From Streptomyces violaceusniger Tu 4113 (GTDB taxonomy: Bacteria; Actinomycetota; Actinomycetes; Streptomycetales; Streptomycetaceae): a stretch of 64,000 nt of DNA. Of the stretch, positions 9,909 through 27,139 are shown one piece after another; within the stretch, counting starts at the first letter, position 1, and the number at the start of each line of letters is the position of its first letter. The stretch covers positions 4,154,001 to 4,218,000 of the forward strand of contig NC_015957.1 in the NCBI RefSeq assembly GCF_000147815.2. The letters run 5' to 3'. Made by a program: the position numbers and the translations under genes. The notes under the pieces are model-generated. The model saw only the letters and a list, made by a program, of their open reading frames with translations, was not told the origin of the DNA and ran no database searches.

Positions 9909-10406
9909 TCAGGAGCGCGGGGCGGGCTGATAGGCGCCGGGCACCATCCGTGCGCTGATCGCCGTGCGGTTGTAGGCGTTGATCACGACGGCGGCCCAGA
10001 TCACCGCCGTCATCTGCGGTTCGTCGAACACCTCGCGGGCCGCCGCGTAGACCTCGTCCGGCACCTGGCCGTCCTGGACGGAGGTCACCGCCTCGGCCAG
10101 CGCGAGCGCGGCCCGCTCCCGCTCGGTGAAGAACGGGGTCTCCCGCCAGGCGCCGAGGGTGTGGATCCGCTGCTCGGTCTCGCCCTGGGCACGGGCGTCC
10201 TTGGTGTGCATGTCCAGGCAGAAGGCGCAGCCGTTGAGCTGCGAGGCGCGGATGCGCACCAGCTCCAGCAGCCCGGGCTCGACCCCCGCCGCCTGGGCCG
10301 CCCGCAGCGCCGCCCGGTGCAGCTCGCCCATCGCGGCGGAGACCTCGGGGGCGAGGCCCTTCAGATCCAGCCGGGCGGTGGTGCGGTCCGGGGTGGTCGT
10401 CGTCAT
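9909..10406 (-). CDS. Carboxymuconolactone decarboxylase / AhpD-like protein
   Basis: 165 residues with the family core LVRIRASQLNGCAFCLDMHTKDAR: a CxxC (CAFC) followed by His three residues later, the redox/proton-relay motif of AhpD-type alkylhydroperoxidases. The ATG overlaps the stop of the upstream pabC-like gene (ATGA), so it is the last gene of the PABA-type operon. Family members either reduce peroxides or act on aromatic ring-cleavage intermediates. A protective or tailoring role in the operon's pathway is inference from position. Confidence 0.9.
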   Translation of the reverse strand: MTTTTPDRTTARLDLKGLAPEVSAAMGELHRAALRAAQAAGVEPGLLELVRIRASQLNGCAFCLDMHTKDARAQGETEQRIHTLGAWRETPFFTERERAALALAEAVTSVQDGQVPDEVYAAAREVFDEPQMTAVIWAAVVINAYNRTAISARMVPGAYQPAPRS

Positions 10407-11245
10407 CGGTGAACTCCGTTCGTCGAAACCAGGGGATCGGAAGCGCCGTCGAGCCAGGACTGCCAGGAGGCGGCGCGCAGCGCCGGGCCCGCCCGCAGCG
10501 GACGGCCCAGCCAGGCGGTCACCGGACGGATTCCGTGCACCGCGTTGACCAGCCACACCTCACGGCCGTCCAGCTCCTGGACGGTGCGGTTGCGGTGCTC
10601 GGTGCGGACGCCCAGCTCGGCCGCCCGGTCCTGGATCAGCGCCGCGGTCACGCCCGCCAGCAGCGGAAGCCCCGGGGGCGGCAGACACAGGACGTCGTCC
10701 TCCCACCACAGAACGCTCGCCGTCGTCCCCTCCAGCACCAGTCCGGAGGGCGTGGTGAGCATCAGCTCCTGCGCGCCCCGGGCGGCGGCCCGCTCGCGCA
10801 GATGCGCCAGCAGGGGGAGGTCGGGGCCCTTACGACGGGGATACGACCGCGGATCGAACTCCTCGGTCAGGCAAACGGTCACATTGGCCGTCCGCGGCGG
10901 CGCCGGGCGTATCCGCAGGAACAGCCGGGCCGGCTCCGGACCGGCCAGCTCGACCCGCGGGAACCAGCGCTCGGTACGGGGCAGGGCGGCGATCGCCTCG
11001 CGCCAGAAGCTCTCGATCCGGGCGCAGGAGTCGCCGGACGCCTCGACGCACGCGGCGACGAACCGGCGGCGATGGTGGTCGAGCCCGCGCACCCGTCCGT
11101 CGTCGACCAGCCAGGAATCGGCGGCCAGCAGTGCGGCGTCCGGCACCGCCCGGGAGGGCATCAGCCCGCCGTCCTCGCGCCACATCAGCGTCCACTGCTT
11201 CTTCTCCGACGCGTCGGCGTGACCGATGTTCTGTGCAGCGACCAT
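10403..11245 (-). CDS. pabC: Aminotransferase class IV, aminodeoxychorismate lyase-like (PabC type)
   Basis: About 280 residues of fold type IV PLP enzyme. Visible are LDHHRRRFVAAC, the likely Schiff-base Lys in SYPRRKGPDLPLLAHLRERA, then ELMLTTPSGLVLEGTTASV and LPLLAGVTAALI, the usual order for 4-amino-4-deoxychorismate lyase and branched-chain transaminases. Lyase activity (ADC to PABA plus pyruvate) is favoured because pabAB is in the same operon. The ATG at 11245 follows a GGAAG site; a GTG at 11257 is possible. It is coupled by ATGA to the CMD gene and separated by 111 nt from the chimeric gene upstream. Confidence 0.85.
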   Translation of the reverse strand: MVAAQNIGHADASEKKQWTLMWREDGGLMPSRAVPDAALLAADSWLVDDGRVRGLDHHRRRFVAACVEASGDSCARIESFWREAIAALPRTERWFPRVELAGPEPARLFLRIRPAPPRTANVTVCLTEEFDPRSYPRRKGPDLPLLAHLRERAAARGAQELMLTTPSGLVLEGTTASVLWWEDDVLCLPPPGLPLLAGVTAALIQDRAAELGVRTEHRNRTVQELDGREVWLVNAVHGIRPVTAWLGRPLRAGPALRAASWQSWLDGASDPLVSTNGVHR

Positions 11246-11356
11246 GTCCGCTTCCACGTCTCCGTCCCGATGCTGTCCGAAGCTGCTTCCGGTGTTTTCC
11301 GGTATCCGATGAGTGCTGTCCGGCCGGATTCCTGGCCCCGCTCGCTGGAATGCCGG

Positions 11357-12748
11357 TCAATAGCCGCGCGCCGGGCCGCCCCGGGGGCCGTAAGGAGCGC
11401 GTTCCAGCCACTCCCCGCAGCGGGGGACCACCGGGGCCAGCGTCGCCGCCGCCCGCTGGGCCGCTCGCTTCCACGGCCGGGGCCGCAGATGGTCCAGGGC
11501 CGCCCCGGCGGCCTCGCTGTTGTGCAGGGCCGCGCTCCGGCGGGCGGCGGCGTACCCGGCCACCGCCGCGGGTCCCCGCGACGGCTCGGAGCATGCCGCG
11601 GACACCGCCTCGGCCGCCGCGACGGCGCCCGCGATCCCGCTGTTCATCCCGCGGGCGCCGAAGGGCGGGAACAGATGAGCGGCCTCACCCGCCAGCAGCA
11701 CCCGTCCCGACGGATCGGCGAACGACCCGGCGACCTTGCGCAGGAAGTGGTACCGCGACACCCACAGCACCCGGTGGGCGCAGTCCTCGCCCACCAGCCG
11801 GGGCAGCCAGCGGCGCACCGCCTTCTCGGTGCCGAAGGACTCCGGCGGGTCGTCCGCCCGGCACTGCAGATCGCCGGTGCCGCGCTCGTCCACCAGGGCG
11901 GCGTACGAGGACGGTACCGAGTACAGCAGGGTCACCCGGTGCCGGGCCACGAGGCCGTCGATGAGGGCCGGTCCGGGGCGGTCCGCGGTGAGCACGGCGG
12001 CCGACCCCGAGAAGAGGGGGAAGGCGAAGGCGTTCCCGAGGCCGTAGGCGTAGGCGTAGAACAGCTTGGACACCGAGAACGACACGTCCGCCGGGCCGAT
12101 GTCCAGCACCTCCTGCCCGACCAGATCGTGATAGGCGGCCATATCGCCATGGCTGTGGGCCACCGCCTTGGGGCGGCCGGTGGTCCTGGAGGTGTACTGG
12201 AGGTACAGCGGAGTGGCGGCCGTCACCGGTTCCGCCGCCGGGGCCGGGGCCGCCGGGGCCGGGGTGGCGGGCGGGCCGGTCAGGGCCGAGAGCTGGTCGC
12301 CGCCGAGCCAGGGGACGCCCTCGAAGTGGTCCTGGAGATCGGGGCCCGAGACGGCCAGCGCGGCGCGCGAGTCCTCGGCCATGAAGCGGTGGTCGTCGGC
12401 GGTGAGCGCGGGATTGACCAGCACCGCCGTCGCGCCCAGCCGGGCGGTGGCCAGAAACGCGGTCACCCACATGACGCCGTCGGGTAACGCGAGCAGCACC
12501 CGGTCGCCGGCCGCCACCCCCCGGCCCGCCAGCACGGTGGCGGCGCGCTCGGCGCGGTCGTGGACCTCGCCGTGGGTCCAGACCCGGTGGCCCTCGAAGA
12601 AGGCGGCCCGGCCGGACCAGCCGCGGCGGTCCGCGAGCGCCGCGAGATGCGCGGCCACATTGGCGGAGACCGTGGGGCCGGTGGGCATGGGCGGTGTGGG
12701 CATCGAAACGGCGGCCGTCGAAACGGTGGGTACCGACAGGGCGGTCAC
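11357..12748 (-). CDS. Chimeric protein: truncated benzoate-CoA-ligase-like front fused to truncated FAD aromatic hydroxylase back
   Basis: 463 residues in one unbroken frame. Residues about 30-288 match the N-terminal half of aryl-CoA ligases of the benzoate-CoA ligase kind: RVWTHGEVHDRAERAATVL, adenylate motif YTSRTTGRPKAVAHSH (residues 185-200; Arg for the usual Gly), SKLFYAYAYGLGNAFAFPL. From about residue 293 the sequence is the C-terminal part of class A flavin hydroxylases (MhpA/PobA-like): LQCRADDPPESFGT, WVSRYHFLRKVA, and the second FAD motif RVLLAGEAAHLFPPFGARGMNSG. The ligase lacks its catalytic C-terminal domain and the hydroxylase its N-terminal GxGxxG. Neither activity should survive. 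It starts ATGA-coupled to pabAB. An in-frame deletion across two adjacent genes is the simplest explanation. Confidence 0.85.
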   Translation of the reverse strand: MTALSVPTVSTAAVSMPTPPMPTGPTVSANVAAHLAALADRRGWSGRAAFFEGHRVWTHGEVHDRAERAATVLAGRGVAAGDRVLLALPDGVMWVTAFLATARLGATAVLVNPALTADDHRFMAEDSRAALAVSGPDLQDHFEGVPWLGGDQLSALTGPPATPAPAAPAPAAEPVTAATPLYLQYTSRTTGRPKAVAHSHGDMAAYHDLVGQEVLDIGPADVSFSVSKLFYAYAYGLGNAFAFPLFSGSAAVLTADRPGPALIDGLVARHRVTLLYSVPSSYAALVDERGTGDLQCRADDPPESFGTEKAVRRWLPRLVGEDCAHRVLWVSRYHFLRKVAGSFADPSGRVLLAGEAAHLFPPFGARGMNSGIAGAVAAAEAVSAACSEPSRGPAAVAGYAAARRSAALHNSEAAGAALDHLRPRPWKRAAQRAAATLAPVVPRCGEWLERAPYGPRGGPARGY

Positions 12749-15105
12749 CGGCCGGGCTCCTTCGCCGCAGGGGCCGGTGACGCAGTGGCGGCGGCCACGA
12801 GCAGGTCGTCGATTTCCCCGGCGGGCTCCCCGGCGATCTCCCCGGCGGGCTCACCGGCGGGGACGGGCTCCACGGCCTCGTAGGCACGCATGGTGGCGGC
12901 GGTCTTCAGCAGCATTTCCTCGTACTCCTCGGCCGGATCGGAATCGAGCACGATGGCGCCGCCCGCGCCGATGTGCATCCGGCCGCCGGTGAACACAGCG
13001 GTGCGGATGACGATGTTGAGGTCGGCCGCGCCGTTGCAGCTCAGGTAGCCGAGCGCCCCCGAGTAGACACCCCGGGCCTCGGTCTCCAGCGAGTCGATGA
13101 TCTCCAGCGTGCGCAGCTTGGGGGCGCCGGTCATGGAGCCGCCCGGGAAGCAGGCCCGGACGCAGTCGACGGAGGTCGTCTCCTGGCGCAGCCGGCCGCG
13201 CACGGTGGAGACCAGTTGGTGGACGGTGGCGTAGGTCTCGGTGTTCATCAGGCGCGGCACATACACGCTGCCCGGTGCACACACCCGCCCCAGATCGTTG
13301 CGGAGCAGGTCCACGATCATCAGGTTCTCGGCGCGGGCCTTGGGGCTGGAGGCGAGGGCGGCGAGCGCCCGCGCGTCCTGCTCCGGGTCCCGGCCGCGCG
13401 GGGCGGTGCCCTTGATCGGCTTGGCCTCGGCGGTGCCGTCGGGAGTGATGCGCAGAAAGCGTTCGGGGGAGGCGCAGGCCACATCGGTGCCGCCGAACCG
13501 CAGATAGGCGGCGTACGGCGCCGGGTTGAACCGCCGCAGGGCCCGGTAGAAGGCGTAACTATCGCTCGGGGCGGGCAGCCAGGCGGCGTTGGTCAGGCAG
13601 ATCTCATAGCTCACCCCGGCGCGCAGCTCCCGCAGACACGCCTCGATCGAGGCCAGATACCGCTCCCGGTCCCGCACCAGCCAGGGCTCCACGGCGGCCG
13701 TGGTGGTGAGGGCGGGCGGCTGCGGGGCGGGGCCGGTGAGCGTCGGCACCCCGCTGAGCACCGTCACGGTGGTGTCCAGCCAGTCCTTCGCCTCCCGGTG
13801 GCCGTCGGAGGTGTCCTCGGTGAGGCAGCAGATGTAGGTGACGCCCTCCTGGTGGTCGACCGCGACGAACCGGTCGGCGAAGAGCCAGCAGGCATCCGGA
13901 GTGGCGGACCTGTGGCGACCCGGGGCGCCGCAGTCGGCCTTGAGCTCGTACCCGAAGTAGCCCACATAGCCGCCGGTGAAGTCGAAGGGGAGACCGGGGG
14001 CGGTCACCCGGCGGCGGGCCAGTTCCCGTTTGAGGTAGTCGAAGACGCTGCCCTCGACCCGGACGGCGGGCCGTCCCGCCCGCTCGACCTCGCAGACGTC
14101 CGTGTCCGTGTCGTAGCGGACGAACTCGGCGAGCGGACCGGTGCCGTCCCCGAGGAAGGAGAAGCGCGCCTCGCCGGACTCGACGCGCGAGCTGTCGAGC
14201 CAGAACGCGTGCGGCGCCTTCGCGTACAGCCGGGTGAAGGCCGCCTCGGTGTCGGTGGCATCGGCCAGCCACCGGGCGTGCAGCCGGTAGGCGGGGCCTT
14301 CCGGGGGCGACTGCGCCGGGGCGCCCGGGTCGGGGTCGAGACGGGCCAGTTCCGCTCGGGGGTCCGCCTCGGGGGCCTGCGGGGAGCCCGGCCCGGCGGC
14401 AGGCCCCGCGGCAGGTTCCGCCGCGGCACGGGCGCGGCGCGGCTCCTCGGTGGAGGTGGAGGTGGAGGTGGAGGCGGGGGCGGGGGCCACGGTCGAGGTC
14501 ACCGACTCGCCGTTGGCGTGCTCGATGGTCAGATCGCGGAAGTTGCCGAGCATACGGTGGCCGTATCCGGTCAGCACCGACTCCGGGTGGAACTGGACGC
14601 CCCACAGCGGACGGGCCCGGTGTCGCACCCCCATCAGCACACCGTCCTCGGACCAGGCGATGCCCTGCAGCCCCAGCGGCAGCGGCTCGGCCACGCACAG
14701 CGAGTGATAGCGAACGGCCGTGAAGTCCTGCGGCAGACCGCGGAACAGCCCGCGCCCGCCGTGTTTGATGCGGGACAGATGCCCGTGCTTCGGTTCGGGC
14801 GCGGGCACCACCCGCGCCTGGGCGCCGAGCGCGATTCCCTGGTGCCCCAGGCACACCCCCAGCACCGGAATGGTCGACCGCTCGATCAGCCGGGCGGTGG
14901 CGCCGAAGTCCCGCGGATCGGCCGGATGCCCGGCGCCGGGGGAGAGCACGATGTTGTCGAACGCGTTCAGATCGATGTCCGCGCATTCCGGCGCGTCATG
15001 GAGAAGCACCTCCGGTTCCTCGCCGTTGACCTCGGTCAGCAGATGAAAGAGGTTGTACGTGTACGAGTCGTGATGATCGACGAGGAGTGTCCTCAGCGAT
15101 TCCAT
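12745..15105 (-). CDS. pabAB: Fused aminodeoxychorismate synthase (glutamine amidotransferase + chorismate-binding domains)
   Basis: 786 residues. Residues 5-195 are a class I glutamine amidotransferase with Cys85 in GVCLGHQG and His173/Glu175 in QFHPES. A Ser/Thr/Pro/Ala-rich linker (about 200-265) leads to a chorismate-binding domain with PIKGT (Lys565), GGSMTGAPKLRTLEIID and GALGYLSCNG. Lys in PIKGT is the signature of aminodeoxychorismate synthase; anthranilate synthases have Ala. Product: 4-amino-4-deoxychorismate from chorismate and glutamine. Fused PabAB enzymes of this order serve PABA-derived antibiotics (candicidin, chloramphenicol types). AAGGAGG precedes the ATG. The C-terminal tail carries a GEPAGEI repeat. 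ATGA overlap with the next gene. Confidence 0.93.
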   Translation of the reverse strand: MESLRTLLVDHHDSYTYNLFHLLTEVNGEEPEVLLHDAPECADIDLNAFDNIVLSPGAGHPADPRDFGATARLIERSTIPVLGVCLGHQGIALGAQARVVPAPEPKHGHLSRIKHGGRGLFRGLPQDFTAVRYHSLCVAEPLPLGLQGIAWSEDGVLMGVRHRARPLWGVQFHPESVLTGYGHRMLGNFRDLTIEHANGESVTSTVAPAPASTSTSTSTEEPRRARAAAEPAAGPAAGPGSPQAPEADPRAELARLDPDPGAPAQSPPEGPAYRLHARWLADATDTEAAFTRLYAKAPHAFWLDSSRVESGEARFSFLGDGTGPLAEFVRYDTDTDVCEVERAGRPAVRVEGSVFDYLKRELARRRVTAPGLPFDFTGGYVGYFGYELKADCGAPGRHRSATPDACWLFADRFVAVDHQEGVTYICCLTEDTSDGHREAKDWLDTTVTVLSGVPTLTGPAPQPPALTTTAAVEPWLVRDRERYLASIEACLRELRAGVSYEICLTNAAWLPAPSDSYAFYRALRRFNPAPYAAYLRFGGTDVACASPERFLRITPDGTAEAKPIKGTAPRGRDPEQDARALAALASSPKARAENLMIVDLLRNDLGRVCAPGSVYVPRLMNTETYATVHQLVSTVRGRLRQETTSVDCVRACFPGGSMTGAPKLRTLEIIDSLETEARGVYSGALGYLSCNGAADLNIVIRTAVFTGGRMHIGAGGAIVLDSDPAEEYEEMLLKTAATMRAYEAVEPVPAGEPAGEIAGEPAGEIDDLLVAAATASPAPAAKEPGR

Positions 15106-15183: not shown

Positions 15184-15807
15184 CTACCGGCGAGCGCGTG
15201 GGCCGTCGGCCGCCATCCGCCTGTGACGTCCTCGTATCGGCTGAAGCGGCGGGTAGAGCCACTTCTTCAGAATCCGCTGCAGCCGTGGCATGACCAGCCA
15301 GGTCACCATCGCGGTCACACCAAGACACAGAGCCAGGGTCCGCAGCAGGAAATTGGTGTCCTTGATGAACGGGATCACCAGCACATTGAAGATGAGGACC
15401 GGAGGGAACACCGCGCTCAGATTCACCAGCCACAGCTTCCATTTGGGCGGTGGCGGCAGCGGCCGCACCGGCCCCTTGAACCAGTTCTCCAGTCCCGAGG
15501 TGCGCTGTGTTCTCTTTTCCTGGACGAAGGGCCCGGTCAGGGATGCCAATCGCGCACGTTCCAGCGAGGAATCCCATGCCCGTGCCGGGCCTTCCGCCTC
15601 GAACCGGTAGGGGACATGCCACTCCGAGGCGGCCGAACCGGATCCCATGACCCCGCCTCCGAGATATCCCGGAAGGCGTGCCGCGGCATTGAGTATCTCG
15701 ATCGCCCAGGCATAGAACTCGCTTTCGCGGCCGGGGTCCACCCGGTATGCGGCAGTCACCGTGAGCGGCTCGCTGTCCACTCCAGCCGCAACTCCTTTCC
15801 GCACCAT
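15184..15807 (-). CDS. Antibiotic biosynthesis monooxygenase (ABM)-domain protein with C-terminal membrane segments
   Basis: About 207 residues from the ATG at 15807 (AAGG eight nt upstream; a GTG at 15825 is possible). Residues about 15-110 form an ABM ferredoxin-like domain (LTVTAAYRVDPGRESEFYAWA; LPGYLGGGVMGSG; EWHVPYRFEA). Two hydrophobic helices follow (LWLVNLSAVFPPVLIFNVLVI and LLRTLALCLGVTAMVTWLVM) with a basic tail. Such membrane-tethered ABM proteins are widespread and uncharacterised. It is the first gene of the PABA-type operon, 78 nt before pabAB, so a role with an aromatic intermediate is possible but unproven. Confidence 0.85.
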   Translation of the reverse strand: MVRKGVAAGVDSEPLTVTAAYRVDPGRESEFYAWAIEILNAAARLPGYLGGGVMGSGSAASEWHVPYRFEAEGPARAWDSSLERARLASLTGPFVQEKRTQRTSGLENWFKGPVRPLPPPPKWKLWLVNLSAVFPPVLIFNVLVIPFIKDTNFLLRTLALCLGVTAMVTWLVMPRLQRILKKWLYPPLQPIRGRHRRMAADGPRARR

Positions 15808-16040
15808 GACGTTTGCCTTCTCCACCGTGCCGACCTGCGAGAACTGTCAACTTCCCGTCAGGTCCACCCGGCGAGATGACAGGAAGTGTTCCACAGCGTG
15901 CGATCGGGAACAGTGGGATGCTCAACAACGTACATAAAAACCCGAAAAGGCCGTCGTGACCTGGGCGTTATCTGCGATACGGGGTTCTCGCGGCACCACT
16001 ACTGGGCCGCTGAAAAAGATTCCGCGCGCGGATTGAACAT
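15808..16040. other. Noncoding stretch upstream of the ABM/pabAB operon
   Basis: No gene is supported here. On the minus strand a TTGACA stands at 15850-15845, but no convincing -10 follows at the right distance. The run around 15930-15950 is AT-rich for this genome. The stretch is bounded by the rocD terminator at 16041-16090. Confidence 0.4.
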
Positions 16041-18803: not shown

Positions 18804-19296
18804 CTTTTGTCGTCCTTTACGGTTTTTGCCCCATAGGTAAAGGGCTCTTCCGTGCTTTCCAACGGCCCCATACTCATTGAATGCCTGAGGCGCCTTTTTC
18901 TGTACGCTCTTTCAGAAAGATTCCACAACAGGGGGGCGTGAACCGGGGCGCGAGCCCCTTCTTTCCAGGGGTCGCGCGGCACGGGCTCCGGGGGTACAAC
19001 AGCGGTGCGCCGGACCGGCCGAATCCACCTCGGTGATGCGGATACCACCTACCGGCCCATGTCCCCGCGGGCGTACCGTCATCTATTCCACCCGTCCTTT
19101 CCGAAAGGTGAGCGACTCCCGAACGGAGGCGACTCACCATCCAACGGGGAAAGGCTTCGAGTACGCCCAACGCCGCGCCGTACGCGCCGAATTCGCCGGT
19201 GGACCGATTCCGGCCCACCGACGGTGCCACCGCGCTTTCGGCGAAGCTCCGTACCGGCGGGTCCGTACTCCGGTGTGAGCGAAAGGGACCACCATC
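18804..19296. other. Long divergent intergenic region between lrp and the ketosynthase gene
   Basis: About 490 nt with no credible gene; short frames on both strands lack ribosome sites and family features. The first 150 nt next to lrp are notably AT-rich for this genome, fitting promoters and an Lrp operator. The half nearer 19296 is GC-rich, and no clear -35/-10 pair was recognised for the KS-PKS genes. Confidence 0.5.
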
Positions 19297-19329
19297 ATGA
19301 CTCTTTCCAGATTCAGCAGGGCGTTGTGA
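19297..19329 (+). CDS. Possible 10-residue leader peptide overlapping the ketosynthase start
   Basis: ATG-initiated frame MTLSRFSRAL-stop, preceded by the best ribosome site in the area (GAAAGGGA, about 8 nt before the ATG). Its TGA overlaps the GTG proposed for the ketosynthase (GTGA). It may be a translational-coupling leader or simply a site where the true start of the next gene is shifted by a base error. Confidence 0.4.
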   Translation: MTLSRFSRAL

Positions 19330-20672
19330 GCCCGAGCCGCCACCCCTCCCGCCCGGCTCCGGGCGGCGCCGGGAACCCCCGGGACGCCGTCGTCACGGGC
19401 CTCGGCTTCTGCCTGCCGGGCGGCGCCGAACCCGTCTTCACCGCGGCCCAGGTGTGGGACATCGCCTCCCAGGGCCGCACCGTCCTCGGTCGGGACGGCA
19501 GCCACTACGGCTCGGTCCATCTGACGGCGGGGCAGTTCGAGGAGCGACTCCCCGACATCCCCGACTTCTTCTCCCGCCACTACACCAACGCCCATCGGTA
19601 CGGCCTGGTCTCCCTCGTCGAGGCGTGCGCCGACGCCGAACTCGACGTGGCCGCGGGCGATCTGTGCGAGGCGGCCCTGGTGGTCGGCCGCGGCAGCGTG
19701 GACGCCAATGTGGACAGCTATCTCACCCTGCTCGGCATCGACCCCGACTCCGCCACCACCCTCGACGCCCTGGAGATGTTCGTCGCGGCCGAACAGGCCG
19801 TGTCCCCCTCCGACGTGGCCGTCGTCCAGGGCGCGCTGACCCGGACCATCGGCCCCTGCTTCACCGTGTCCTGCGGCTGCGCCTCCAGCGCCGTGCAGAT
19901 CGGCAACGCCCGCCGCCTCATCGCGACCGGCGAGACCGACCTCGCGGTGGTGACCGGTGTCGACGTCTTCAACGTCGGCCTGATCGAAAAGGGTCAGCGG
20001 CTGCTGCGCGGCGCCCAGCACGCCTACGACGGCATGGACGCCGCCGGAATGCCCGATCTGCTGCCGTCCTTCGACTCCCTCATGCGCCCCTACGACCGGC
20101 GCGCCGACTGCATCAACCACGGCGAGGGATCCGCCACCGTGATCCTGGAGAGCAGGGCGCACGCCGCCCGCCGCGGCGCCCACCTCTACGGTCAGGTGCT
20201 CGCCGCCGCCATGACCCGCGACGGCCTGGCCAATCCGCTGGCCGCCGACCACACCGGTGCGCAGCTCGCGCGCGCCGTCCGCCTCTGCCTGGGTGACCGA
20301 TGGCGGATCGAGCAGGTGCCGTACATCAACGGCGCCAGCGACGGCGGTGCCGCCGTCACCGCCATGGAGGCCAACACCGTCCGCGAGCTCTACGGCCCCG
20401 ACTCCACCGTGCTGCTGTCCTCCCAGGAAGGTTGCTTCGGCCACCACGGAGCGGCCTCCGGCTGCGTGGGCCTCGCCCTGACCCTGATGATGATGGAGTT
20501 CGGCGAGGTGTGCCCCACGGCCAACTGCGAACAGCCCGCGGACGGGCTCTCGTTCGACCCCGTCCCCGGCACCCGCGCCCGTCCCCTCGAGTTCGACCAC
20601 GCGCTCAGCTTCAACTACCAGATCGGTGGCGTGAAGCACGCGATGCTGCTGGGCGGCCCGGACGCCACCTGA
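19326..20672 (+). CDS. Stand-alone beta-ketoacyl synthase (FabF-like) with an altered active site
   Basis: 448 residues of thiolase fold, aligning with FabF over its length. The nucleophile Cys is present (SCGCASSAVQIG, Cys185), as is the second His (CFGHHGAASG, His373). The first catalytic His motif (AHGTST) is replaced by INGASDGG and the Lys motif by SSQEGC. Chain-length factors lose the Cys instead, so this is not a CLF. It may act as an acyltransferase, priming or decarboxylating KS for the PKS 83 nt downstream on the same strand. The GTG at 19326 has a weak site of its own and overlaps the 10-residue leader; a GTG at 19275 is an alternative. Confidence 0.85.
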   Translation: MSPSRHPSRPAPGGAGNPRDAVVTGLGFCLPGGAEPVFTAAQVWDIASQGRTVLGRDGSHYGSVHLTAGQFEERLPDIPDFFSRHYTNAHRYGLVSLVEACADAELDVAAGDLCEAALVVGRGSVDANVDSYLTLLGIDPDSATTLDALEMFVAAEQAVSPSDVAVVQGALTRTIGPCFTVSCGCASSAVQIGNARRLIATGETDLAVVTGVDVFNVGLIEKGQRLLRGAQHAYDGMDAAGMPDLLPSFDSLMRPYDRRADCINHGEGSATVILESRAHAARRGAHLYGQVLAAAMTRDGLANPLAADHTGAQLARAVRLCLGDRWRIEQVPYINGASDGGAAVTAMEANTVRELYGPDSTVLLSSQEGCFGHHGAASGCVGLALTLMMMEFGEVCPTANCEQPADGLSFDPVPGTRARPLEFDHALSFNYQIGGVKHAMLLGGPDAT

Positions 20673-20755
20673 GTCCGTACACCCCCGCGGCGATCTCCAC
20701 CCCACGGCCCCCCACGGCCCCCACCCCGGGCCGAGCACCACCCACGGAGACCCCG

Positions 20756-23700
20756 ATGAGTCAGCACACCCCCGCTCCCAGCCGTTCCCCCGGCCGCATC
20801 GCCATCGTCGGCATGGGCTGCCGGCTTCCCGGTGACACCGACTCGCCCGCCGCCCTGTGGCGGCTGCTGGCCGACGGGCGCGACGCCGTCGCCGAACCGC
20901 CCGCCGAGCGCGCCGCGCTCTGGGCGGCCGACCCCACCACGACCGCCCGGCCCGAATCCGCGCCCCCGGTCCGCGGTGGATATCTGCGCGACGTGTCCGG
21001 TTTCGACGCCGACTTCTTCGGCGTCTCCGGGCGCGAGGCAGACATCCTCGACCCCCAGCACCGGTTACTGCTCGAAGTGGCCTGGGAGGCCCTGGAACAT
21101 GCCGGAATGCCACCCGACCGGCTCGGCTCCACCGCCACCGGTGTCTTCGCCGGGCTCAGCTACAACGACTACATGAACCGGCTCGACCGGCACCCCCGCG
21201 AGCTGGAGGGCTCCGCCCTGGCCAACGGTCACTGCGTCGCCACCGGCCGGATCTCCTACCTCCTCGGCCTCCACGGCCCCTCCGTGGCCCTGGACACCGC
21301 GTGCTCGTCCTCCCTGGTCGCCGTCCACCTGGCGGTCCAGGCGCTGCGCGCCGGGGACTGCGATCTGGCCCTGGCCGGCGGCGTCACCCTGATGTTCGAG
21401 CCGCGGATCACCCGCTCGTTCGACCGGATGGGCATGCTCTCGCACACCGGCCACTGCCACGCCTTCGACGCCGCCGCCGACGGTTTCGTCCGCGGCGAGG
21501 GCTGCGGCATCGTCGTCCTCAAACGCCTCACCGACGCCGTGCGCGACGGGGACCGGATCCTGGCCGTGCTGCGCGGCTCGGCCGTCAACCAGGACGGCCA
21601 CTCCGACGGGCTCGCCGCGCCCTCGGCCACCGCCCAGCGCGCCCTGTACGAGGAGGCGCTCGGCCGCGCCGGGGTCGACCCCGCCGATGTCGGGATGGTC
21701 GAGGCCCACGGCACCGGCACCCCCGTCGGCGACCCGGTCGAATTCGCCAGCCTCGCCCAGGTCTACGGAACCGGCCGCGACCGCTGCGCCCTTGCCTCGG
21801 TCAAGACCAACCTGGGCCATCTGGAGCCCGCCGCCGGGGTCACCGGCCTGATCAAGGCCGTGCTGTGCCTGGGCCGTGGACTCATCCCGCCCAATCTGCA
21901 CTTCACCCGGTGGAATCCCACCATCGACGCCGACCGCACCCGCCTCTTCATCCCCCGCGAGCTCACCCCCTGGCCGGTGCGCACCGGCCCGCGGCTGGCC
22001 GCCGTGTCCTCCTTCGGCTTCTCCGGGACCAACGCCCATGTGGTGCTGGAACAACCCCCCGCAGCCCCCGCACCCGCCTCCCGCCCCGCACCGCGGCGCC
22101 CCCGGCCCGCCACCCACGCCGTTCCGCAGGTGTTCCTCGTCCCCGCCGGGTCCCCGGCCGCGCTGCCATCCGCCGCGCGGCGGATGGCGGACTGGCTGGA
22201 GGGCGACGGCGCGGACACCCCGCTGCGCGATATCGCCCACACCCTGGCGCTGCGCCGCGGCGCCGGCCGCGGACGACTCGGCGTCACCACCGCCTCCCGC
22301 GCCGAACTCATCGGCGCCCTGAGGGCGTTCGCCGCCGGTCAGGCCCACCCCGCCGTGGTCACCGGCGCCGTGGGCGCCGAGGTCTCCCGCCGGCCGATCT
22401 GGGTGTTCTCCGGACAGGGCTCCCAGTGGCCCGGCATGGGACGGCGGCTGCTGGAGAGCGAACCGGCCTTCGCCGAGGCGCTCGCCGAGGCCGACGCGCT
22501 CATCGCCGCCGAGTCCGGATTCTCGGTGCTCGACATCGTCCGCTCCGGCGCTCCGGTGACCGGCTGCGACCGGGTGCAGCCCGTGCTGTTCGCCCTGCAG
22601 ACCGCGCTCGCCGCCACCTGGCGCGCCCACGGCGTCCAGCCCGCCGGGGTCATCGGCCACTCCATGGGCGAGGTCGCCGCCGCCGTGGTGGCCGGGGCGC
22701 TCTCCCTGGCCGACGGGGCGAAGGTGATCTGCCGCCGCTCCAGGCTGCTCACCCGCGTCGCCGGGAACGGCACCATGGCCACGGTGGGCCTCGGCGCCGA
22801 CGAGGTACAGGCCGAACTCGACACCGGCGGCGCCGCGGAAGCGGTCACCGTCGCCGTCATGGCCGCACCCGGCTCCACCGTGGTGGCCGGGGACACCGCC
22901 CACGTCGAACGGCTCGTCGCCGGCTGGCAGGCCCGCTCCGTGCCCGCCGCGCTGATCGCCGTGGACGTCGCCTCGCACTCACCCCAGGTGGACCCGCTCC
23001 TGGCCGATCTGCGCACCGCCCTCGCCGACCTCACCCCCCGCCGCCCGGACGTGCCCTTCTACACCACCGTCCTTGACGATCCGCGCACCCCGCCCGCCTT
23101 CGACGCCGAGTACTGGTGCGCCAATCTGCGCCACCCGGTCCGGTTCTCCGCGGCCGTCGCCGCCGCCGCGGCCGACCGCCACCTGGTGTACGTCGAGATA
23201 TCCCCCCACCCCGTCATCACCCACCCCGTCCTGCGCGGTCTCGCCGGTCTGGTGGAGGACCCCGTCGTCCTGCCCACCCTCCGCCGCGACGAGGACGAGC
23301 CGGCCACGTTCCGAACTCATCTGGCCGCGCTGCACTGCGCGGGCGTCCCCGTCGACTGGTCCGTGCTGTACGCGGACGCCGCCCTCGCCGACGTACCGCC
23401 CATCACCTTCGACCGCACCCGCCACTGGGCCGACGCACCGCTCGCCGCGCCCTCCGCCGACCCGCCCGGCGCGGGGCCGGCCGGTGCGCTGCCCGGCGCG
23501 CACCTGGAGATGCCCGGCGAACCCGTCCGCCACTCCTGGCGCGCCCGCACCGGCACCGCGGCCCTGCCCTGGCTCGACGACCACCGGGTGCACGACGCCC
23601 CCGTCCTGCCCGGCGCGGCCTCCTACGCCCTCGCGCTCACCGCCGCCTGCGAGGTGTTCGGCGCCGAGCCCGAGCAGGTCGAGGTCACCGATCTGCACTT

Positions 23701-26700
23701 CCGCGAGCTGCTGCGGCTCGCCGACCACACCGACCTCTCCACCACGGTGACCCTCGCCGCCGCCGACCGCGCCGAATGCGAGATCTTCGGACGCGACGAG
23801 GACGGTGCCTGGGTGCGGCAGGCCACCGCGGTGCTCCGCAGACTCGCCGCACCGCCGCGCTCCCGCGCCGCCTCCGTCCGGACCCTCGCCCTGCGCCATC
23901 CGCTGCCCGTCGAGGCCGACGCCCTCTACGCCAATCTGCGGGCCCGGGGCGTGGCACACGGACCGGCTTTCCAGGGCATCACCGAAGTGTCCGCCGCCCG
24001 CCACGGCAACAGCTTCTGGGCCCGGGTACGGATCCCCGAGGCCGCCCGCGCCCCCGGACACGGTCTGCGCATCCACCCCGTCCTCGTCGACCTGTGCGCC
24101 CAACTCCTCGTCGCCGGGCTGCTCGACGAGGACGACCGGCGACTGCTGCTGCCCGCGCGGATGCAGAGCGTACGTGTCCTCGGCGACCCCGAGACCGCCG
24201 TGTACTGCCACGCCCGGCTCGCCGAGACCACCCCCGGGGCCACCGTCGGGCACGTCCGCCTGCTCGACGCGGCCGGCCGGCCGGTGCTGGCCGTCGACGG
24301 GCTGCGGATCGTCCACAGCGCCGCGGACCGCACGGCCGAGGTCGACCAGTGGTTCCTCGAGGTCGGCTGGCGGCGCGCCACCCGGCCCGCGGCCACCCGG
24401 CCCCCGGGACGATGGCTGATCGTCGGAGAGGCGGACGGCACCGCCCGCCCGGTGGCCGCCGCCCTGCGCAACGCCGGCGCCACCGCCCGGGTATGGGAGA
24501 CACCCCTGGCCGAGCAGGGGCTCGACGCCTTCCGCGACGCCCTCACCAGCCGGCTCACCCGCCCCGGAGACCGGCCGCGCGCCGTGGTGCTCCTGTGCGC
24601 CCCGCGCCCCGCCGACGGCGGCGCGCAGGACGGACTGCGCCGCACCCGCCGGCTGCTCGCCGCCGCCCAGGCGCTCACCGCCCGCTTCCCCGAACCGCCC
24701 CGCCTCTACGCCGCCACCTGCGGCGCCCGCACCGTGACCCCCGGGGACCTGGCCGACCCCGGACAGAGCCCGCTCCGCGGACTCCTGCGGGTGCTCGCCC
24801 TGGAACACCCCGAGCTGCGGGCCACCTTGGTGGACACCGACCCGGCCGCCCCCGACGAGCTCGCGGAGACCCTCGCCGCCGAACTCCTCGCCGACGGCCC
24901 CGAGGAGGAGATCGCGCTGCGCGACAGCGCCCGCTACACCGCCGAACTGGACTACGCGCCCCTCACCGACACCGAGCGCACCACCGCCTGTGCCCGCACC
25001 GTGCGCTGCGGCACCGACGGCTTCCGGCTGCGCGCCGGCCGCCTCGGCGACCTCGGCAGCCTGGAGCTCACCACCGCGCCCCGCCGTCGGCCCGGGCCCG
25101 GCGAGGTGGAGCTGCGGGTGCTCGCCGCGGGCCTGAACTTCCGCGACGTCCTCACCGCCATGGGCCTGCTCCCCGGCGACGAGAACATCCGCTACCGGCT
25201 CGGCTTCGAATGCGCGGGCGAGGTGAGCGCGGTCGGACCCGGTGTCGACCATCTCCGCACCGGTGACCGGGTGGTGGCGGCCGATGTGCACGGCGGCGCC
25301 TTCGGATCGTTCACCGTCGTCCCCGCCGACCGCACCGCACCCCTTCCCGAGGGCCTCACCCCGGACACCGCCGCCGGGCTGCCGATCGCCTTCCTCACCG
25401 CCTGGTACGCGCTGCGCCACGTCGGGCAGGTGACCGCGGGGGAGCGGGTGCTGATCCACTCGGCCACCGGCGGCACCGGGCTCGCCGCCATCGCGGTCGC
25501 CCGGCTGCTGGGCGCCGAGGTGCTGGCCACGGCGGGCAGCGAGGAGAAGCGGCGCTTCCTGCGGGCCATGGGCATCGCCCAGGTGATGGACTCCCGGTCG
25601 CTGGACTTCCGCGACGAGGTCAAGGAGGCCACCGGAGGCGAGGGCGTCGACGTCGTGCTCAACTCCCTCGCCGGCTCGGCCATCCGGGCCGGTCTTGAGT
25701 GTCTGCGCCCGTTCGGCCGCTTCATCGAACTCGGCGTCCGCGACATCCTCTCCGACGCCCCGCTCGGACTCTCCCCGCTGCGCCACAACATCACCTTCTC
25801 CACCGTGGACCTGAGGGAGCTGCAACTGGCCCGCCCGCAGGTGTACGCCGCAATGCTGCGCGAGGTGCTCGCCGCGATCGCCGAGGGCCGTCTCAAGCCG
25901 CTGCGCTGCACCACCTATCCGCTGGCCGAGGTCACCGACGCGTTCCGGTGGATGGCCGGGGCCCGCCACATCGGCAAACTGGTGCTGACCATCCCGCAGG
26001 AGGGCCAGGTCGACGCCGTCCTGCCGGACGGACCGCTGACGGTGCGCGACGGCGGTACGTACATCGTCACCGGCGGCCTGCGCGGTCTCGGGCTCGCCAC
26101 CGCCTGCTGGCTGGCCCGGCAGGGCGCGGGCCACCTGGTGCTGAGCGGGCGTACCGCACCGGTCGGCGCCGCCGCACGGACGCTCGCCGAACTCTCCGCC
26201 GCCGGCACCAGGATCACCGTCGTCACCGGCGACATCAGCCACCCGGGCACGGCCGACCGGCTCGTGGCCGCCGCCACCGCCGCCGACGGGGCGTCGCTGA
26301 ACGGTGTCGTCCACAGCGCGATGGTCCTCGACGACGCGGCCGTGGCCAACATCCGCGAGGACCAGCTCGGCCGCGTATGGGCGCCGAAGGTCACCGGGGC
26401 GTGGCGGCTGCACCAGGCCACCGAGGGACACCGGCTCGACTGGTTCGCGGTGTACTCCTCGATGGCGTCGCTGCTCGGCAACGCCGGACAGGGCGCCTAC
26501 GCGGCAGCCAACGCCTGGCTGGACGGCTTCGCCGCATGGCGCTCGGCACACGGCCTGCCCACCCTCGCCGTCAACTGGGGCCCGTGGGGCGAGACCGGAG
26601 TGGCCACCGACTTCGCCGACCGCGGCTATCAGACGATCCCCACCGAGCAGGGGCTCGGCGCGCTCGGCGCCCTGCTGGCCCACCGGCGGGTGCAGACCGG

Positions 26701-27139
26701 TGTGATCCCCGGCGAACCGGCCACCTGGATCCCCGCCGCCGGCCGCCGGTCCGCCCTGTTCGCCCCGCTCATCCCCGGCGACGACACTCCGGTGGCCGCC
26801 CGGGAGAGCACCGACGACATCCGCGCCCGGCTGGCCGCACTCCCCGCGGGCCCGGCCCGCCGCACCGCGCTGGAGGCCTATCTGACCGACCACATCCGTG
26901 CCGTGCTGCGGCTCAGCAGCGCCACCCTCGATCCGCGGACCCCCCTGAGGTCACTGGGGTTCGACTCGCTGCTCGCCATGGAGCTGCGGGTGCGTCTGGA
27001 GACGGGGCTGAACATCAAGCTCGCGGGCAACTTCGTCTGGCGGCACCCGACCCTGGAGGCCCTGGCCGCGGGGCTCGCCCAGCAACTGGGGCTCGATCCG
27101 GCCGACCGGCCGGAGGAGCGGCTGGGCGCCCCGGGCTGA
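20756..27139 (+). CDS. Single-module, fully reducing type I polyketide synthase (Mas-like, KS-AT-DH-ER-KR-ACP)
   Basis: 2127 residues; GGAG precedes the ATG by six nt. KS about 14-440 with DTACSSS (Cys183), EAHGTGT and TNLGH. AT with GHSMGE (Ser636) and a VASH motif, which resembles methylmalonyl-selective ATs such as mycobacterial Mas. DH with DHRVHDAPVLPG (His943; Asp at the usual Gly) and HPVLVDLCAQ. ER about 1430-1740 with HSATGGTGLAAI. KR with TGGLRGLG, an LDD motif (B-type) and the Tyr in GAYAAANAW. ACP with GFDSLL (Ser2071). One full reductive module without loading domain or thioesterase implies iterative synthesis of a saturated, probably branched acyl chain. Priming and release must be supplied in trans. 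Confidence 0.95.
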   Translation: MSQHTPAPSRSPGRIAIVGMGCRLPGDTDSPAALWRLLADGRDAVAEPPAERAALWAADPTTTARPESAPPVRGGYLRDVSGFDADFFGVSGREADILDPQHRLLLEVAWEALEHAGMPPDRLGSTATGVFAGLSYNDYMNRLDRHPRELEGSALANGHCVATGRISYLLGLHGPSVALDTACSSSLVAVHLAVQALRAGDCDLALAGGVTLMFEPRITRSFDRMGMLSHTGHCHAFDAAADGFVRGEGCGIVVLKRLTDAVRDGDRILAVLRGSAVNQDGHSDGLAAPSATAQRALYEEALGRAGVDPADVGMVEAHGTGTPVGDPVEFASLAQVYGTGRDRCALASVKTNLGHLEPAAGVTGLIKAVLCLGRGLIPPNLHFTRWNPTIDADRTRLFIPRELTPWPVRTGPRLAAVSSFGFSGTNAHVVLEQPPAAPAPASRPAPRRPRPATHAVPQVFLVPAGSPAALPSAARRMADWLEGDGADTPLRDIAHTLALRRGAGRGRLGVTTASRAELIGALRAFAAGQAHPAVVTGAVGAEVSRRPIWVFSGQGSQWPGMGRRLLESEPAFAEALAEADALIAAESGFSVLDIVRSGAPVTGCDRVQPVLFALQTALAATWRAHGVQPAGVIGHSMGEVAAAVVAGALSLADGAKVICRRSRLLTRVAGNGTMATVGLGADEVQAELDTGGAAEAVTVAVMAAPGSTVVAGDTAHVERLVAGWQARSVPAALIAVDVASHSPQVDPLLADLRTALADLTPRRPDVPFYTTVLDDPRTPPAFDAEYWCANLRHPVRFSAAVAAAAADRHLVYVEISPHPVITHPVLRGLAGLVEDPVVLPTLRRDEDEPATFRTHLAALHCAGVPVDWSVLYADAALADVPPITFDRTRHWADAPLAAPSADPPGAGPAGALPGAHLEMPGEPVRHSWRARTGTAALPWLDDHRVHDAPVLPGAASYALALTAACEVFGAEPEQVEVTDLHFRELLRLADHTDLSTTVTLAAADRAECEIFGRDEDGAWVRQATAVLRRLAAPPRSRAASVRTLALRHPLPVEADALYANLRARGVAHGPAFQGITEVSAARHGNSFWARVRIPEAARAPGHGLRIHPVLVDLCAQLLVAGLLDEDDRRLLLPARMQSVRVLGDPETAVYCHARLAETTPGATVGHVRLLDAAGRPVLAVDGLRIVHSAADRTAEVDQWFLEVGWRRATRPAATRPPGRWLIVGEADGTARPVAAALRNAGATARVWETPLAEQGLDAFRDALTSRLTRPGDRPRAVVLLCAPRPADGGAQDGLRRTRRLLAAAQALTARFPEPPRLYAATCGARTVTPGDLADPGQSPLRGLLRVLALEHPELRATLVDTDPAAPDELAETLAAELLADGPEEEIALRDSARYTAELDYAPLTDTERTTACARTVRCGTDGFRLRAGRLGDLGSLELTTAPRRRPGPGEVELRVLAAGLNFRDVLTAMGLLPGDENIRYRLGFECAGEVSAVGPGVDHLRTGDRVVAADVHGGAFGSFTVVPADRTAPLPEGLTPDTAAGLPIAFLTAWYALRHVGQVTAGERVLIHSATGGTGLAAIAVARLLGAEVLATAGSEEKRRFLRAMGIAQVMDSRSLDFRDEVKEATGGEGVDVVLNSLAGSAIRAGLECLRPFGRFIELGVRDILSDAPLGLSPLRHNITFSTVDLRELQLARPQVYAAMLREVLAAIAEGRLKPLRCTTYPLAEVTDAFRWMAGARHIGKLVLTIPQEGQVDAVLPDGPLTVRDGGTYIVTGGLRGLGLATACWLARQGAGHLVLSGRTAPVGAAARTLAELSAAGTRITVVTGDISHPGTADRLVAAATAADGASLNGVVHSAMVLDDAAVANIREDQLGRVWAPKVTGAWRLHQATEGHRLDWFAVYSSMASLLGNAGQGAYAAANAWLDGFAAWRSAHGLPTLAVNWGPWGETGVATDFADRGYQTIPTEQGLGALGALLAHRRVQTGVIPGEPATWIPAAGRRSALFAPLIPGDDTPVAARESTDDIRARLAALPAGPARRTALEAYLTDHIRAVLRLSSATLDPRTPLRSLGFDSLLAMELRVRLETGLNIKLAGNFVWRHPTLEALAAGLAQQLGLDPADRPEERLGAPG

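Follow-up and report, generated by a model that had tools for sequence, protein, structure and literature searches.

How did a gene that begins as an aryl-CoA ligase and ends as a flavin hydroxylase come to stand in Streptomyces violaceusniger Tu 4113, and is anything to be expected of its product? The gene lies in the 64,000-nucleotide stretch of DNA analysed here (the window), where positions 11357-12748 of the minus strand are a single open frame of 463 codons. The frame is composed of a benzoate-CoA-ligase-like front of 292 residues and a back of 171 residues, the end of a class A flavin hydroxylase. The chimera is read here, with a probability of roughly 0.9, as a deletion scar: some 3.13 kb was lost from an operon, fusing the front of a first ligase gene (ligase 1) to the back of a hydroxylase gene and leaving a product that would lack both activities. 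Its features are as follows.

11873..12748, minus strand: ligase 1 half, the first 292 codons of a benzoate-CoA-ligase-like gene, with a GTG start that overlaps the pabAB stop (GTGA)
12185..12187, minus strand: Gly to Arg at codon 188, in the presumed ATP loop TSGTTGRPK of the ligase half
12032..12061, minus strand: FYAYAYGLGN, a 6-base insertion giving two extra residues, plus Phe to Leu; the closest relatives have FYAYGFGN
11872..11874, minus strand: deletion junction, with 1-base microhomology (C at 11873); 3130 bp of the sequence of relative G188 are absent in the window
11357..11872, minus strand: hydroxylase half, the final 171 codons, with the stop, of a class A flavin hydroxylase
11627..11629, minus strand: Asp to Gly at codon 374, in GMNSGIADA of the hydroxylase half

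That a ligase front and a hydroxylase back share one frame, as the original prediction held, is confirmed by Pfam domains, by homologue matches and by the switch at window 11873, where ligase codons (12748-11873) give way to hydroxylase codons (11872-11357). At E <=0.01, Pfam places AMP-binding at residues 44-291 (E 4.7e-43) and FAD_binding_3 at residues 297-407 (E 8e-12, profile 235-342 of 349), with no further domain in the chimera, and both domains are cut at the join. The sequence there is ligase-like GGCACCGGC on the left and hydroxylase-like GATCTGCAG on the right, with one C common to the two. Among the best 120 of 1058 homologues, the best non-self protein match is a 533-aa ligase (90% identity across 64% of the query), and the two-domain pattern is confined to the chimera's own cluster, P0001, the rest being ligases or hydroxylases. 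Hydroxylases of 425 and 419 aa, among the matches listed, show 99% and 98% identity across 37% of the query. P0001 comprises 4 member sequences, taken together as one cluster; other strains of this species may therefore share the chimera. A sequence search of plasmid records gave zero matches to it. Structure prediction returned a mean pLDDT of 43 for the chimera and of 54 for an intact ligase control with a similarly thin alignment; since the control is also poor, the predicted structure supports no conclusion. A Pfam scan reads the chimera as a two-domain protein, which is a warning for annotation.

The operon in which the chimera sits has these other members in the window.

15184..15825, minus strand: ABM-like gene, upstream of pabAB; weak Pfam match
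12745..15105, minus strand: pabAB, a fused aminodeoxychorismate-synthase-like gene, upstream in the operon; open frame
10403..11257, minus strand: pabC-like class IV aminotransferase-fold gene, downstream in the operon; open frame
9909..10556, minus strand: AhpD/CMD-family gene; in the closest named relatives (L037-L044) it comes after pabC, on the same strand

The typical order, (ABM-like)-pabAB-ligase 1-ligase 2-hydroxylase-pabC, is that of the named loci L037-L116, the best 80 of 251 found when the species-genome collection was scanned with a hydroxylase alignment. Ligase 1, ligase 2 and the hydroxylase lie on one strand in that order in 80 of the 80, a count that includes L043 and L067 (cut by contig ends) and L039 (ligase 1 internally deleted); in L110 a CMD gene stands between ligase 2 and the hydroxylase. 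pabAB is present in 77 of the 80, upstream on the same strand in 76, and is absent from the L043, L067 and L072 stretches, which begin at or inside ligase 1. pabC is present in 79 (the exception is L081), and in 77 it lies downstream, on the same strand. Of the 80, 61 have the ABM-like gene and 75 have CMD, some stretches being cut by contig ends; ABM-like Pfam scores are 13.4 bits in the window, 19.0 in L037 and 24.2 in L030, against a cut-off of 23.1. The PABA operon is widespread in Streptomyces and occurs also in Actinoplanes (L096) and Kibdelosporangium (L116).

Against G188, the closest relative compared (2.1% difference from the window in flanking genes), the deletion measures 3130 bp, bases 9661-12790 of L129 (the G188 stretch) being missing; against S. 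iranensis it measures 3159 bp. The lost 3130 bp cover ligase 2 entirely, together with the end of ligase 1 and the beginning of the hydroxylase. All six named relatives aligned up to both breakpoints (L037, L038, L040, L041, L042 and L044) break at 11873 and rejoin 3.09-3.20 kb on. Four further stretches, G188, G407 (11870 on one side), G395 and G119, break likewise, G395 and L037 being very probably one genome. Ligase 2 is a complete AMP-binding-enzyme gene (529 aa in S. iranensis; strain DSM 41954 is locus L037, where the operon carries no flag), and since it lies between the two fused genes in every named locus, a whole second adenylating-enzyme gene was lost too. The predicted fusion of a ligase gene to a downstream hydroxylase gene by deletion thus stands, but not the predicted size of 1.5 kb. 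Likewise, the relatives do carry separate ligase and hydroxylase genes (80/80 loci), as anticipated, but with ligase 2 intervening.

A collapse in assembly or sequencing, with intact genes really present in the genome, had been offered as the other possibility and is very unlikely. An event private to one genome is how an artefact would look, and the 10-base word CGGCACCGGC, which ends at the left G188 breakpoint, recurs about 55 bases before the right one. Against this, the join shares 1 base and the longest word common to the 300-bp stretches round the two G188 breakpoints is 11 bases. No long piece of the deleted DNA lies on any contig of the assembly, which has 3 contigs and is 100% complete: the deleted 3130 bp gave 12 matches in the window's own genome (G000), the best of 82 bp at 74% and none above 100 query bases, and this search did not find ligase 2 elsewhere in that genome. 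The ligase half, moreover, bears marks of decay (a 6-base insertion and the changed ATP-loop glycine), these genes are also hit by deletions, at different breakpoints, in two relatives, and the chimera's cluster has four member sequences, which may belong to other strains.

How private the event is can be judged from a 600-bp probe centred on the join, which at E 1e-40 found matches in 53 of the 392 genus genomes searched, a count that includes the genome of the window itself. Only the window's own genome spans the join. In 25 others both halves lie on one contig, 2.95-3.24 kb apart (hand count), and the remaining 27, including G173, matched with just one half. A further search, centred on G188 (6 of 391 genomes at 1e-85), gave no other join-spanning match; it drew largely the same genomes as the first and is not an independent sample. 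The same fusion occurs in none of the 80 named loci, a set ranked by hydroxylase match, so that loci with a truncated hydroxylase outside the violaceusniger-like group (named after its named members) could be missed. Many unrelated genomes with the same fusion, the finding that would refute the original prediction by its own terms, were sought and not found in the 392 genomes or the 80 named loci.

On the ligase side, residues 30-289 of the chimera align with TIGR02262 (benzoate-CoA ligase) at 148 bits, short of the family cut-off of 375 bits, and residues 19-299 align with PDB 2V7B, among the benzoate-CoA ligase and FadD22-type aryl adenylating enzymes of the ANL superfamily. Unlike those enzymes, the chimera has Arg for the ATP-loop Gly and nothing of the ligase after residue 292, the C-terminal domain included. 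The AMP-binding core (PF00501) is incomplete, with profile positions 8-276 of 384 only. The loop reads SRTTGRPK in place of TSGTTGRPK, presumably the ATP-binding loop; codon 188 is glycine in 9/9 other sequences of alignment A2 and in 7/7 relatives readable there. Missing by motif comparison are also EQIGSTEAG, GWLATRD, GRVDDLEMVGG and PRTPTGKLRR of P0002, which we take to represent the later core motifs, the hinge and the C-terminal domain of the ligase, whose Lys lies in PRTPTGKLRR.

On the hydroxylase side, the nearest kind is that of the class A flavin hydroxylases (PF01494; RebC, PgaE, rifampin monooxygenase). Of PF01494 the chimera covers only the last part (positions 235-342 of 349), and of the 549 residues of RebC it matches 252-379, whereas intact relatives' hydroxylases match near-whole PF01494 and long stretches of solved flavin monooxygenases. 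It differs from these enzymes in having neither the front of the FAD fold, its FAD_binding_3 match starting at profile position 235 of 349, nor the GxGxxG FAD Rossmann motif (GAGPVG of P0011), and in the change of Asp to Gly in GMNSGIADA. The C-terminal motif GRVLLAGEAAHLFPPFGARGMNSGIADA of P0011, presumably FAD-contacting, is kept save for this change; codon 374 is Asp in 9/9 other sequences of alignment A1 and in 8/8 relatives read. The two absences named by the original prediction, of the ligase C-terminal domain and of the GxGxxG site, thus agree with the comparison to P0002 and P0011. With the late ligase motifs and the hydroxylase GAGPVG absent, neither ligase nor hydroxylase activity would be expected of the product, and the chimeric gene is very probably a non-working remnant of the pathway.

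The incomplete state of both catalytic sets also bears on whether selection could have kept a working new fusion protein, for example a binding or regulatory protein, or one whose hydroxylase half has taken on another function. Such a protein might account for the in-frame join (expected by chance in 1 of 3 cases), for the few amino-acid changes in the hydroxylase half, and for the start codon overlapping the pabAB stop, by which translation of the chimera is probably coupled. However, the changes hit otherwise invariant alignment positions in both halves, the join is found in 1 genome only among those searched, and the deletions of G173 and L039 are out of frame, so that it is loss that recurs rather than fusion; a working fusion is accordingly most improbable. 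An ancestor with ligase 1 directly followed by the hydroxylase and a 1.5 kb deletion, the adjacency assumed in the original prediction, has next to no likelihood, since ligase 2 stands between them in all 80 named loci and in G188, and no evidence favouring it was found.

Under the preferred reading, that of a deletion scar, the order of events can be approached through codons private to each lineage, counted in the window and 8 relatives with seven flanking genes as control. In the window lineage the control genes carry 8 nonsynonymous (N) and 37 synonymous (S) private changes. The ligase half carries 8 N/5 S (p 0.004 against control, nominal) and the ABM-like gene 8 N/1 S (p 9e-5); CMD has 3 N/2 S, pabC 3 N/5 S, pabAB 5 N/21 S and the hydroxylase half 1 N/6 S. 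In G407, whose ligase genes carry no flag, the ligase half has 8 N/8 S (p 0.03). There were 54 gene-by-lineage tests with small counts and nominal p values; after full correction the p of the ligase half fails and that of the ABM-like gene survives. Under a simple neutral model the ligase half (8/13 N), the ABM-like gene (8/9) and CMD (3/5) are compatible with neutrality, while the hydroxylase half (1/7 N, P 0.008) and pabAB (5/26) depart from it; pabC, with 3/8 N (P 0.10), falls between the two.

Among the private changes of the ligase half are Gly188Arg, which falls in its ATP loop, and the 6-base insertion; the single private amino-acid change of the hydroxylase half falls on the otherwise invariant Asp. 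Because the ligase half looks neutral and has lost its ATP-loop glycine while the hydroxylase half is constrained, ligase 1 probably failed before the deletion, which is probably recent. The 1 N/6 S of the hydroxylase half implies constraint for most of the branch, which fits a recent deletion or a retained role. On the simplest account, function was lost first in ligase 1 and the ABM-like gene, and the deletion followed late. A point against the preferred reading is the constraint on pabAB despite a second pabB/pabC-like pair at C3:3.09 Mb (pabB 334 bits, cut-off 408). With this other pair in the genome, the notion that pabAB is kept as the sole source of PABA was dropped. The ABM-like gene before pabAB seems to decay alongside the operon, having 8 N/1 S in the window and being partly deleted in G173.

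The course of events was then very probably as follows. A Streptomyces operon with ligase 1, ligase 2 and the hydroxylase as separate genes was the starting point, and ligase 1 probably decayed first. About 3.13 kb was lost by joining with almost no microhomology, which removed the end of ligase 1, the complete ligase 2 gene and the beginning of the hydroxylase gene, with the frame kept by chance. PABA may still be made in the window's strain, as the pabAB and pabC frames are open, and its activation and hydroxylation in the pathway would be lost. The disabled pathway that the original prediction foresaw is thus likely, although the ligase may already have been out of action when the fusion arose.

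The pathway is being lost in some close relatives too, two of which carry deletions of their own. G173, a draft assembly of about 1380 contigs that differs from the window by 2.7% in flanking genes, has its own deletion, in which ligase 1, kept as far as the position matching window 12355, runs out of frame into a hydroxylase point before window 11873; about 0.1 kb is also deleted near the hydroxylase end and 152 bp are gone from the ABM-like gene. In S. sabulosicollis (L039, also a draft assembly) an out-of-frame deletion of about 0.9 kb lies within ligase 1, and ligase 2 and the hydroxylase are kept. These deletions differ and are out of frame, so what recurs is loss, not fusion. Among the 72 named loci outside the group (L045-L116), 70 carry no flag in the three genes, L067 is cut by a contig end, and L093 has a frame change, in ligase 1. 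In this non-random sample, deletions in the operon genes were thus seen three times inside the violaceusniger-like group (the window, G173 and L039) and never outside it. A Fisher comparison of the group with the outside loci for large deletions is not relied on, because it took 11 group members where 12 belong and because the sampling was non-random. S. violaceusniger NBRC 13459 (L040) and S. himastatinicus ATCC 53653 (L044) show frame breaks in ligase genes, by decay or sequencing error; several are single-base, some in or beside one-base runs, and they were left out of the loss count.

Deletion-made chimeric pseudogenes in decaying biosynthetic clusters are a known category. The chimera resembles them in its clean join, in the separate parent genes of relatives, in the neutral-looking change of one part and in the other deletions of two sister lineages; it differs in that its frame happens to be open and its hydroxylase half is little changed. 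No relevant paper on decayed clusters in S. violaceusniger was among the literature matches listed. Taken alone, the chimera is one more deletion-made pseudogene, an ordinary event with good support. It is a good example of pathway decay, and it served as a marker that led to a PABA operon in many Streptomyces. With the operon genes hit by three distinct deletions in a single species group, there are natural mutants from which to learn the product of the operon and the reason for its dispensability there.

The operon presumably acts on PABA. Its ligase 1, as represented by the half in the window, is benzoate/4-hydroxybenzoate-ligase-like by profile match. For ligase 2 (L037:8410-9999) the best solved-structure match is Tri17 (9BQ0/8TF7; E 1.5e-28), and the model of the diazotase AvaA6 is matched at 87 of 975 bits, below the cut-off. 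Tri17 and AvaA6 are described as N-N-bond enzymes in PMC11705231. These matches and the adjoining pabAB hint weakly at diazotisation or activation chemistry on PABA, weakly because general fatty-acyl-CoA ligase models score higher. By Pfam name, no obvious nitrite-making gene was seen among the 10 genes round the operon in L030, and literature searches found no description of the operon product or of a cluster of PABA, ligase and hydroxylase genes. It is conceivable, if rather unlikely, that the operon yields an undescribed PABA-derived Streptomyces metabolite, perhaps via diazotisation by ligase 2, and that the violaceusniger-like group was selected to lose the operon, ligase 1 first, the chimera being one of several repeated losses.

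Two minor observations concern the genes nearby. In pabAB (window 12745-15105, minus strand), codon 58, within the SPGPG motif of the glutamine amidotransferase portion, is Ala, against Pro in 8/8 relatives. Divergent from the operon, window 19005-27139 (plus strand) holds a ketosynthase-like gene standing alone and, after it, a frame of 2279 codons with a reducing type I polyketide synthase.
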